Shown: in pieces, positions 19,219 to 49,196 of the stretch | Position numbering within the stretch: the stretch's first letter is position 1 | Layout: every line of letters starts with the position of its first letter | Assembly: GCA_029239675.1 (NCBI GenBank) | Contig: JARBUM010000005.1 | Location: 1 to 64,000 of the forward strand | Source: Pelosinus sp. | Lineage (GTDB): Bacteria; Bacillota; Negativicutes; DSM-13327 | Direction: 5' to 3' | Length of the DNA stretch: 64,000 nt | Notes under the pieces: model-generated | What the model saw: the letters and a program-made list of their open reading frames with translations, nothing else | The model's database searches: none | Told to the model about the DNA's origin: nothing | Made by a program: the position numbers and the translations under genes

Positions 19219-19821
19219 TTAACAACAACGATCTCCAGAAACAGAAGTTAGGGCTTCTAGATTTACCACTGCGGTTCTAATTTTTCTGTCTGAAAGGGAA
19301 GTACTGGTACCAGGAACGAAGATATCTGTGTTTGAAAGGATTGCTAAGCAATCGTCGATGGCAATGAGGGTCCCTTCAACAGAGAAGCCACCAAGAGTTG
19401 TTAATACGACTCCGTCGCCAACCATGCGACACAATACTCTGACTAAATGGCGACTTTCCTGACGTTCTGTTCCTTCTTCTAACTCATTTCTGGGTGATGT
19501 AGTTGGAGTTGTTGCTACCCCTTTATGTCCTAGGTCTCCAATAGGATCACTAACTATTGCCGTACCTTTAGCAACTATGTTCCATAGATCCACACGGGTG
19601 AAATCTACATGTAGAACTTCTCCTCCCGGACTAAGAATTTCTACACTGTTTGAATCTGCTTCTATCGCTGGAGAAAGAATGGCTATACGACAATCTTCTA
19701 CAGCCTGTAGATTACCGAAATATGCGAACCCATCGAAACCAAACAATACTACATCTGTATTTAATTCCCGTTCTAGTTCTCTAACGAGTGCTTGATTCCG
19801 TAATTCTGTAAAAATGCTCAT
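19219..19821 (-). CDS. Unrecognised protein with two Sm-like repeats
   Basis: A 200-residue protein I cannot place in a named family. It contains an internal duplication. Repeat 1 (about residues 11-88) has LVRELERE, VVLFGFDGFAYFGNLQAVED and CRIAIL. Repeat 2 (about 125-197) has LVRVLCRM, VVLTTLGGFSVEGTLIAIDD and CLAIL. The V-x-L-x-x-x-GG/DGF-x-x-x-G-x-L-x-A-x-(E/D)DC-x-AIL pattern resembles an Sm/LSm beta barrel. The linker between repeats is low complexity (TTPTTSPRNELEEG) and the chain ends in CC. No signal peptide. It is monocistronic with its own terminator. A spore-coat or RNA-binding role is conceivable but unsupported. Confidence 0.75.
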   Translation of the reverse strand: MSIFTELRNQALVRELERELNTDVVLFGFDGFAYFGNLQAVEDCRIAILSPAIEADSNSVEILSPGGEVLHVDFTRVDLWNIVAKGTAIVSDPIGDLGHKGVATTPTTSPRNELEEGTERQESRHLVRVLCRMVGDGVVLTTLGGFSVEGTLIAIDDCLAILSNTDIFVPGTSTSLSDRKIRTAVVNLEALTSVSGDRCC

Positions 19822-20034: not shown

Positions 20035-20847
20035 TTAGACTAAAACGTCATTCATACTGCCACTTCGATATCCTGCTAAATCAACAGTAACATAAGTAAA
20101 GCCAATCTTTTTAAGACCTTGTTCGATACACTTTGCTATTTCAGGAGCTGTAATTAAGGCAATATTTTCTGGTAACACTTCAATTCGGGCAATATTATCA
20201 TGATGACGAACACGAACTTGTCCTGGGCAAAACTCTTTTACTAATGCTTCGGCTTTTTCTATCTGATTGAGCCGTTCCGCAGTAATGGATAGCCCATAGG
20301 CTACTCTTGAGGAAAGACAAGCAGCACTGTCCTTATCCCAAGTCTTAAGAGTCCATCCCTTAGATGCCTCTCGGATTTCCTTTTTCGTCAACTCCACTTC
20401 AATCAAAGGACTCCTTACATGTTCTAGCTCTTCTACTGCCTTAATTCCTGGCCGATAATCCGACAAATCATCCACATTTGATCCATCAAGTACCCAATTA
20501 TATCCATTCTTCTTTGCCCAATCCACTAATGCCGAAAATCTTTCTTGTTTACAGTAATAACATCGCTGCTTGTTATTCTCAACAAAATCCCGGCTATTTA
20601 ATTCACTAATATTTAACAATATATGTCTAATGCCAATACTTTTTGCGATTAAGATTGCCTCATTTTTTTCACTCTCTGGCAAGGTCTCAGAATAAGCGGT
20701 AATAGCAATTGCTTTTTCTCCCACAGCACGTACCGCCGCTGCTGCTAAGAAGCTGCTATCAACACCTCCTGAAAAAGCGACTACAATGCTATCTAACCCA
20801 ATCAGTAAATCGTTCAGTTGCTCCAGTTTATTCTCGATAGTTTTCAC
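20035..20847 (-). CDS. larE: ATP-dependent sacrificial sulfur transferase LarE family
   Basis: A 270-residue PP-loop ATPase. The ATP loop is SGGVDSS (residues 26-32). Cys-96 and Cys-99 (CYYC) and Cys-177 (in SAACLSSR) are present. In Lactobacillus plantarum LarE a cysteine near position 176 donates sulfur to the nickel-pincer cofactor of lactate racemase; LarE homologues with three cysteines use a [4Fe-4S] cluster instead, and this sequence has the three-cysteine set. No larA, larB or larC occurs in the window, so lactate racemase maturation is not shown by context. It lies downstream of the SAM-riboswitch gene on the same strand, about 265 bases away. Confidence 0.85.
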   Translation of the reverse strand: MKTIENKLEQLNDLLIGLDSIVVAFSGGVDSSFLAAAAVRAVGEKAIAITAYSETLPESEKNEAILIAKSIGIRHILLNISELNSRDFVENNKQRCYYCKQERFSALVDWAKKNGYNWVLDGSNVDDLSDYRPGIKAVEELEHVRSPLIEVELTKKEIREASKGWTLKTWDKDSAACLSSRVAYGLSITAERLNQIEKAEALVKEFCPGQVRVRHHDNIARIEVLPENIALITAPEIAKCIEQGLKKIGFTYVTVDLAGYRSGSMNDVLV

Positions 20848-20889: not shown

Positions 20890-21022
20890 TTTTATCCGAT
20901 GACCAAGTTGTTCTAAGACTCCCATCTTATACAAGTGGGAGTTAAGAGCAACTAAGTCCCTGGATAAGTGCGACTAAGGTTCAGATGGAGTTGAAACTCC
21001 ATCTGAACCAAGTCTTCTTTAT
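20890..21022 (+). repeat. Dispersed two-hairpin repeat, best preserved copy
   Basis: TTATCCGATGACCAAGTTG at the start and GAACCAAGTCTTCTTTATA at the end. Hairpin 1 pairs GTTGTTCTAAGACTCCC with GGGAGTTAAGAGCAAC, closed by TTATCC/GGATAA. Hairpin 2 is a perfect 14-bp stem (20978-20991 with 20996-21009) capped by TGAA and closed by GACT/AGTC. It occupies the gap upstream of larE. Confidence 0.8.
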
Positions 21023-21088
21023 ATTTTCTACTATACCATGGCAGTTTACATTCTGCCAATAAAATTCAGCCTTTTTCTATACCTAGTA

Positions 21089-21118
21089 TTTTATCCGATG
21101 ACCAAGTCTTCTTTATAT
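21089..21118 (+). repeat. Internally deleted copy of the dispersed repeat
   Basis: TTTTATCCGATGACCAAGTC joined directly to TTCTTTATAT. This is the first and last part of the element fused at ACCAAGT, a 7-base sequence present near both ends of the intact copy at 20890. The fused end supplies the stop codon of the small protein gene at 21113. Confidence 0.7.
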
Positions 21119-21307
21119 TCCATCTCCATTTACACACTCCAGAGAGGGATAGTAAAGACTTTGTTTAAACTTAACTGCAGCACCATTCCGAATGATAATA
21201 ATAATTTCTTCATTTTCTTGGTAGGTAGCTTCTTTACTCATTTTAGATAATACCACATTTGTTTTATTTTGATCTGCAGTTACTGCAACGTTATTTTTAA
21301 GCGTCAT
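21113..21307 (-). CDS. Small unknown protein under a SAM riboswitch
   Basis: A 64-residue protein starting MTLKNNVAVTADQNKTNVVL and containing NEEIIIIIRNGAAVKFKQ; no signal peptide, membrane helix or cysteine cluster (one Cys near the end). I do not recognise it. AGGAGG lies seven bases before ATG 21307, so translation looks genuine. It is the first and, by position, main gene behind a SAM-I riboswitch and its terminator, implying a link to methionine or sulfur metabolism. Its stop codon lies in a fused remnant of the dispersed repeat, so the original C-terminus may have been longer. larE is the next gene downstream. Confidence 0.65.
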   Translation of the reverse strand: MTLKNNVAVTADQNKTNVVLSKMSKEATYQENEEIIIIIRNGAAVKFKQSLYYPSLECVNGDGI

Positions 21308-21330
21308 TTCTTTTCCTCCTTATTATACAA

Positions 21331-21385
21331 AAAAATGTTATTTAAATCCCCTTCCATAAAGAAAGGGACTTAAATAACATTTTTA
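21331..21385 (-). terminator. Expression-platform terminator of the SAM riboswitch
   Basis: A long stem, AAAAATGTTATTTAA plus TCCC/TTC (21331-21354) with its imperfect complement (21361-21385), ending in T7 on the minus strand, between the aptamer and the small gene. Confidence 0.85.
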
Positions 21386-21390
21386 GCCCT

Positions 21391-21491
21391 CTCTCATCTG
21401 TCAGGATAAATCCTGCTGGAATTAGCACCACTGCATTTCTGCCGGTTGCTGGGTGTCATCGGGCCAGTCCCTCGACCACTCTTGATAAGAG
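21391..21491 (-). promoter_or_regulatory. SAM-I (S-box) riboswitch
   Basis: The minus strand shows the S-box core in order: CTCTTATCAAGAG, GGTCGAGGGACTGGCCCGAT, CAGCAACCGGC, GGTGCTAATTCCAGCAG, and closing GATGAGAG that pairs with the 5' CTCTTATC. It should turn transcription off when S-adenosylmethionine is abundant. The controlled gene is the 64-residue protein. Confidence 0.95.
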
Positions 21492-21507
21492 TTTGTTTAT
21501 TAAATTA

Positions 21508-21542
21508 TTGCTAACTATATCACAAATTGATATAGTTAGCAA
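21508..21542 (-). promoter_or_regulatory. Promoter of the SAM-riboswitch transcript, inside a palindrome
   Basis: On the minus strand TTGCTA (21537-21542) and TATAGT (21514-21519) are separated by 17 bases, a good sigma-A promoter 23 bases before the S-box. Both boxes lie within a 15-bp inverted repeat (TTGCTAACTATATCA and complement), which may also bind a regulator or help end the pfkB transcript. Confidence 0.6.
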
Positions 21543-41578: not shown

Positions 41579-41686
41579 TTTATCCCATCGGTGTAACACT
41601 GTCATAGTGCCTGTACCACTTGGTCACGGACCATAATATAAACAGATACTCTGTTTAGCATATGCGGAACCCTAGGTACACTTTCA
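41560..41686 (-). promoter_or_regulatory. ykkC subtype 2 riboswitch aptamer, probably PRPP-sensing
   Basis: On the minus strand the ykkC landmarks appear in order: GTACCTAGGGTTCCGC, GGTCCGTGACC, ACACCGATGGGATAAAAACC and CCCGGGCGGGGAGG. The end CCCGGGCGGGG rather than CCCGGGAGA, and the position behind a guanine aptamer before purine genes, fit the PRPP class (subtype 2b) rather than guanidine or ppGpp. PRPP should favour read-through. Confidence 0.8.
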
Positions 41687-41757
41687 CCCGTAGTCAGACA
41701 ATTTACGGTCGTCCGGTAGAAACGCTTGAGCCTTATTCTCAAAATTATACGAGCATA
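41685..41757 (-). promoter_or_regulatory. Guanine riboswitch aptamer
   Basis: The minus strand reads CTCGTATAATTTTGAG, AAGGCTCAAGCGTTTCTACC, GGACGACCGTAAATTGTC and GACTACGGG. GTTTCTACC and CCGTAAA are the purine core, and GACTA with C (not U) at the discriminator position indicates guanine rather than adenine. It ends directly against the PRPP aptamer. Confidence 0.92.
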
Positions 41758-41773
41758 TTTTCTTTACGGTTTT

Positions 41774-48833: not shown

Positions 48834-48878
48834 CTCAATTTTTATATAATATGAGATATAAAATATAAAATATAAAAT

Positions 48879-48960
48879 AGCTTCCCTACGTTGGTACTAA
48901 CCACATCAGGTTCAAAGGGTCAGGAATATAATTCCCGCTCTGCCAAACGGCTCCCCCAGC
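48879..48960 (-). promoter_or_regulatory. TPP riboswitch, thiS-proximal copy
   Basis: The minus strand has the thi-box order GCTGGGGGAGCCG, GCAGAGCGGGAA, GACCCTTTGAACCTGATGTG, GTTAGTACCAACGTAGGGAA. It should stop transcription of thiSGHFEC when TPP is bound. Confidence 0.95.
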
Positions 48961-49011
48961 CTATTATTCAATTGTTTTGTTAATACTCAAAAACAGTATA
49001 CATCCATAAAA

Positions 49012-49037: not shown

Positions 49038-49062
49038 CTTTTATAAATTCAATATAAAACAG

Positions 49063-49142
49063 CTTCCCTACGTTGGTACTAACCACATCAGGTTCAAAGG
49101 GTCAGGAATATGATTCCCGCTCTGCCATACGGCTCCCCCAGC
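49063..49142 (-). promoter_or_regulatory. TPP riboswitch, promoter-proximal copy
   Basis: Differs from the copy at 48879-48960 at only two of about 80 aligned positions. It has its own terminator, so transcripts meet two TPP checkpoints in series. Confidence 0.95.
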
Positions 49143-49196
49143 ATTATTATTTAATTTCCTCAAGTATAATACAGGTGTCTTTAATATGCAATGTTT

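Follow-up and report, generated by a model that had tools for sequence, protein, structure and literature searches.

A small protein gene behind a SAM-I riboswitch in Pelosinus encodes a CysE-like C-terminus and is a candidate regulator of CysK

Known partners of CysK and comparison with the Pelosinus locus

In the cysteine synthase complex, CysK is bound by the C-terminal tail of serine acetyltransferase (CysE), and the terminal isoleucine of this type of tail is an essential anchor (PMC9547175; also PMC6829319, PMC5562914). The YGDGI pentapeptide alone binds Salmonella CysK with a KD of 11.8 uM, and MNDGI is bound about 25 times more weakly (PMC9547175). CdiA-CT binds CysK through a GYGI end; C. 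elegans EGL-9 and CymR are named as other partners whose C-termini contain Ile (PMC12895370), and EGL-9 likewise relies on a CysE-type tail (PMC5562914). The CymR-CysK pair of Bacillus subtilis makes CysK a regulatory partner in cysteine control, and in P. aeruginosa, where CysE lacks the Ile and the CysK pocket is kept, the authors proposed alternative regulatory partners (PMC12895370). OscA of Pseudomonas is a small protein with links to both sulfur starvation and resistance to chromate, with no function assigned (PMC2996968), and we found no study of DUF2292 function other than those of OscA in the open-licence literature.

We analyzed a 64,000-nucleotide stretch of a Pelosinus sp. genome (here called the window), in which a SAM-I (S-box) riboswitch precedes a 64-codon gene. 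The window protein has the same last four residues as the CysE tail, but differs from CysE in that it is no acetyltransferase and is a separate small protein under SAM control, for which binding to CysK would be predicted. It would resemble CdiA-CT(EC536) and EGL-9 in acting through a C-terminal G-x-G-I or Ile end (PMC12895370, PMC5562914), although it is neither a toxin nor a hydroxylase, and is conserved by vertical descent in sulfur operons, under the control of an S-box. CymR, with which it would share CysK as a partner, is a transcription factor, whereas the window protein has no recognizable DNA-binding domain. It probably acts as a regulator through which cysteine synthesis responds to methionine status.

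The SAM-I leader and the 64-codon gene

The sequence-only reading of this DNA had described a complete promoter, S-box aptamer, terminator, ribosome site and ATG leading into a 64-codon gene, with a LarE-type sulfur transferase gene next on the strand, and all of these were located (Table 1). The Rfam SAM search that it had proposed gave a score more than twice the RF00162 gathering score of 44.4, over the full-length model, as expected of a consensus aptamer with P1-P4 and the core motifs. The terminator, which stands as an expression platform between the aptamer and the gene, has hairpin arms at 21331-21354 and 21361-21384, and most of this hairpin is conserved in an alignment of 6 Pelosinus sequences. 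The leader folds with a minimum energy of -65.6 kcal/mol (z -6.1 vs shuffles). At the promoter, TTGCTAACT and TGATATA are conserved across 6 aligned Pelosinus sequences, and both promoter hexamers are mostly retained in the five other Pelosinus sequences of the alignment. A perfect palindrome over the window's promoter was considered as an operator and rejected, since the palindrome is not conserved in relatives and the hexamers alone are.

Table 1. Coordinates of the leader, the 64-codon gene and the next gene in the window
Feature	Position	Strand	Basis
Promoter, TTGCTA (-35), 17 nt, TATAGT (-10)	21514..21542	-	Consensus scan and conservation
SAM-I (S-box) riboswitch aptamer	21391..21491	-	RF00162, 91.9 bits, E 1.1e-20, model 1-108
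Intrinsic terminator (expression platform)	21331..21384	-	24-nt inverted repeat, then T run; minimum-energy fold
Ribosome-binding site AGGAGG	21315..21320	-	Sequence reading; purine-rich block common to relatives
Start codon ATG	21307	-	Sequence reading
64-codon gene, diverged DUF2292-type protein with C-terminal GDGI	21113..21307	-	ORF, homologues, selection, profile link
Conserved core, residues 33-49 (EEIIIIIRNGAAVKFKQ), predicted beta-hairpin	21161..21211	-	Alignment; AlphaFold, low confidence
Codons of C-terminal GDGI	21116..21127	-	Invariant in 12 homologues; E. coli CysE has the same four-residue end
LarE-type ATP-dependent sacrificial sulfur transferase, next gene	20035..20847	-	TIGR00268, 312 bits

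SAM-I switches are few in this genome, with only 6 per 3.9 Mb. As judged from reading the ORFs, four of them precede genes for methylenetetrahydrofolate reductase, a methionine-type ABC transporter, an aminotransferase and SAM synthetase; the remaining two precede a metB-metC-DUF2292-cysK operon and the window gene.

The 64-aa protein has homologues in 6 of the 7 other Pelosinus genomes (G007, in which none was seen, has a completeness of 85%) and in 5 further genomes of the class Negativicutes. Conservation extends across families of the class. A SAM-I riboswitch lay upstream on the same strand at 11 of the 12 first homologue loci, and within the stretch examined at 14 of 18 further loci, which mostly hold larger paralogues. 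Nei-Gojobori comparison of the window gene with three Pelosinus relatives gave a dN/dS of 0.07-0.19 for residues 31-64, placing the C-terminal half under strong purifying selection, and near-neutral values for residues 1-30, the drifting N-terminal part. Based on these homologues, the riboswitch upstream of them and the selection on the C-terminal half, the ORF is a real gene. The two outcomes that had been named beforehand as counting against it, an unconserved frame in relatives or a truncated known protein, did not occur: the reading frame is kept in relatives and under selection, and the small protein is no truncation of a known one. Searches with the single Pelosinus protein as query returned three Pelosinus matches only, and tblastn against plasmids returned none. 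At one short homologue locus (L057 5193-5420, genome G024), SAM-I is followed by a 75-aa protein without GDGI and then by an apparent hybrid-cluster protein gene.

A diverged DUF2292-type core with a CysE-like tail

The protein had been regarded as unassignable, and this held to the extent that scans of the ORF itself against Pfam and NCBIfam gave no match; its core, however, appears distantly related to DUF2292/YezD/OscA, and its last four residues are those of E. coli CysE. The core, EIIIxIRNGxVVKF, resembles Pfam DUF2292 and carries the hairpin pattern E-I/V-x-I-x-I-x-x-G-x-V-V-x-F/I that is also found in YezD (PF10055) and OscA (NF033785), with which the window protein shares its sulfur context as well. 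The window ORF had no match at the DUF2292 (PF10055) gathering score, and the best of the 12 homologues, that at locus L008, reached an E of 0.07. Tailed paralogues from the same genomes do reach the gathering score, and two tandem neighbours of the L010 homologue match DUF2292 at 4e-16 and 2e-14. Against the OscA equivalog model, with its cut-off of 85 bits, the window ORF gave no match and the paralogues scored 27-37 bits, under the cut-off. When the profile of the short proteins was compared with tailless DUF2292 domains by hhalign, the hairpin was aligned and the probability was 46% (P 2e-4), and with tailed DUF2292 domains, hairpin and tail included, it was 98% (E 7.6e-14). Because the window protein falls below both the Pfam and the OscA thresholds, we treated it as a diverged relative of DUF2292/YezD/OscA outside Pfam membership, and not as a member. 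It further differs from DUF2292 proteins in that the N-terminal helix part is missing, as is the TEK motif, and in bearing the GDGI tail, which most DUF2292 proteins of the phylum lack. AlphaFold, run on a 4-row alignment, gave a poor model (mean pLDDT 56) of three short strands, with low-confidence strands at residues 34-38 and 44-48 in the core; Foldseek of this model against the PDB gave no significant match, and a profile search of the PDB gave chance matches only.

In the first alignment, each of the 12 short proteins ends in GDGI, while the rest of the sequence diverges. Tailed DUF2292 paralogues that were aligned end in GDGI or GEGI, mostly as the YGDGI that is common among the larger paralogues, and a few short homologues have no tail. 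E. coli CysE, translated from NC_000913, ends in INHTFEYGDGI. The window protein thus has the C-terminal Ile and the GDGI-like end of a CysE-type peptide; its affinity for CysK cannot be assumed, because position -5 differs (VNGDGI in the window protein vs EYGDGI in CysE) and the MNDGI peptide is so much weaker a ligand than YGDGI. The sequence-only reading had suggested a new player in sulfur or methyl metabolism. The sulfur part of this suggestion was supported; GDGI, which we consider the informative part of the protein, points to CysK and not to methyl metabolism.

A search of the Pelosinus genome for GDGI followed by a stop codon gave 4-5 DNA matches, which is no excess over the reversed pattern (5 vs 4). 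What is unusual is not the number of matches but that three of them are DUF2292-type proteins, namely the window ORF, a 113-aa protein and a 129-aa protein, which are the three GDGI-ended proteins of this genome. The same genome encodes one MetY and a single CysK (466 bits), which keeps the TSGNT loop and QQF, so a CysK with a kept peptide-binding site is present in the same cell; these segments should include the peptide-binding residues T71, S72, T75 and Q145 listed for PaCysK (PMC12895370). CysK was also present in 23 of 23 other tailed genomes tested. The CysE of the window's own genome ends in NDTKSV, without GDGI, and a GDGI end was absent from every CysE sequence read in tailed genomes. 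In some relatives CysE ends in KSI, and in these it may still bind CysK. This weakens the idea of a CysE left with no CysK-binding end at all: no GDGI was seen in the sequences read, yet some KSI ends exist.

Linkage to sulfur genes and a possible SAM-controlled CysK ligand

The window gene is not itself adjacent to cysK, whereas larger paralogues are cysK neighbours. In the same genome, the 113-aa double-domain DUF2292 protein with GDGI sits between metC and cysK, in an S-box operon of the order metB-metC-DUF2292(GDGI)-cysK, and the 129-aa GDGI protein adjoins an ABC-transporter binding protein and a DUF1847 protein. In 15 of 24 genomes a GDGI- or GEGI-tailed DUF2292 gene was no more than 1.5 kb away from cysK, often together with genes for MetY and LarE, where about 0.07 genomes would be expected by chance; many of these genomes are related, so 6 of 13 genera is the fairer figure. 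Two cysK-linked genomes lie outside the class Negativicutes and have the order cysK-DUF2292(YGDGI), followed in G694 by metY, and no S-box was seen at either locus within the stretch examined. Other clusters read SAM-I, DUF2292(GDGI), MetY; SAM-I, ACT-like protein, DUF2292(GDGI), MetY, LarE; and SAM-I, DUF2292(GEGI), MetY, LarE, CysK. The order of small gene and then larE was the same in other Pelosinus loci, which suggests a further role in sulfur transfer, and larE is possibly in the same transcript as the 64-codon gene.

We propose, with a probability of roughly 0.6, that the product of the 64-codon gene is a small regulatory protein that binds CysK and is synthesized when SAM is low. Under this condition the terminator would not form and the protein would be made. 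Its drifting N-terminus and hairpin core would leave the C-terminus free, and GDGI would insert into the active site of CysK in the manner of the CysE tail. CysK would probably be inhibited or tuned as a result, which could send sulfide or cysteine to homocysteine and methionine and not to the cysteine pool, because MetY consumes the same sulfide as CysK, and MetB and MetC consume cysteine. Alternatively, CysK might be held in a state that reports on O-acetylserine and sulfide; co-induction of CysK with the tailed protein in the metB-metC operon fits such tuning or sensing better than a plain shut-off. Accumulation of O-acetylserine would be expected to loosen the complex, as in the cysteine synthase complex, and the DUF2292 core may be the part that bears the bait or binds a partner, possibly linking CysK to LarE or MetY. 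The broader idea, that a family of small proteins under SAM riboswitches took over the CysE tail, so that SAM status sets the level of a diffusible CysK ligand and the split of sulfur between cysteine and methionine, is more tentative, and we rate it slightly short of even odds. We found no earlier account of such a small CysK-ligand protein in the open-licence literature, and it may have been described elsewhere.

If GDGI binds CysK, the protein might instead act as a tether, its DUF2292 core recruiting CysK to LarE or MetY so that sulfide or cysteine is passed on with no inhibition. LarE lies next to the small gene in Pelosinus loci, and at L010, L050 and L054 it shares the cluster, with MetY, LarE and CysK as neighbours there; but a CysE-type tail in the active site blocks the site that it binds, which makes simple hand-over less likely. 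We regard the tether as unlikely. Somewhat less likely again is a general sulfur-starvation role by an unrelated mechanism, in which GDGI would have another use, such as a degradation or localization signal. It would agree with OscA as a sulfur-starvation protein of unassigned function (PMC2996968), with the matches of the OscA model NF033785 to paralogues, and with the many tailless DUF2292 proteins of the phylum; against it, the tail varies no more than the core does and equals that of CysE residue for residue, and tailed genes are linked to cysK.

The glycine-rich conserved C-terminus, the sulfur context, the LarE neighbours and a MoeB/ThiF-type gene 3' of the homologue in L008 could also recall a small sulfur carrier that a ThiF/MoeB-type enzyme would adenylate and thiocarboxylate at its C-terminus, for use by LarE or in other sulfur transfer. 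ThiS/MoaD-type carriers have a C-terminal Gly-Gly on a beta-grasp fold; the window protein ends instead in GDGI, with Ile last, its hairpin core of about 20 residues (three short strands in the low-confidence model of the protein) is too small for that fold, and a ThiF neighbour of the short type was found at only one of the loci read, making a carrier improbable. Hardly credible is that the ORF, being small, first behind the switch and followed by larE, serves as a leader peptide or translational decoy of a riboswitch for larE and yields no functional protein, given the low dN/dS of its C-terminal half, the strong ribosome site, conservation across families and homologues that follow S-boxes with no larE adjacent. 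If the protein is indeed a SAM-controlled CysK ligand, it would give the DUF2292/YezD/OscA family of small proteins a testable molecular role, add a dedicated partner of CysK to the known CysE, CymR and CdiA-CT, and tie post-translational regulation of cysteine synthesis directly to an S-box riboswitch. The protein would also be a candidate type of partner for organisms in which CysE lacks a CysK-binding tail and the CysK pocket is kept.

Several minor observations were made at these loci. Between the ORF and larE lies a spacer of 265 nt (about 100 nt in L003) with mosaic direct repeats over 20890-21119: 19 nt at 20890-20908 and 21089-21107, and 19 nt at 21007-21025 and 21101-21119, the latter overlapping the ORF stop codon. 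The spacer also has a 15-nt inverted repeat at 20978-21009. The 200-aa protein downstream of larE (19219-19821, - strand) has a marginal LSM-like match (E 0.041). Proteins that are ACT-like by eye come first behind SAM-I and before DUF2292-type genes at L050 4094-4588 and L043 5818-6489, and DUF1847 proteins adjoin tailed DUF2292 genes in two genera (L064 810-1517 and, by eye, L050 3167-3841). At L045 (G048), where a GDGI homologue is present and no SAM-I was detected, the cluster reads amino-acid ABC transporter, RuBisCO-like protein, M20 peptidase, MetQ, MetY and a MetB-like gene. Elsewhere in the window, a purine riboswitch aptamer (83.9 bits) lies at 41671-41772 (- strand), and two tandem TPP riboswitch aptamers lie 80 nt apart on the same strand at 48866-48967 and 49048-49149 (- strand).
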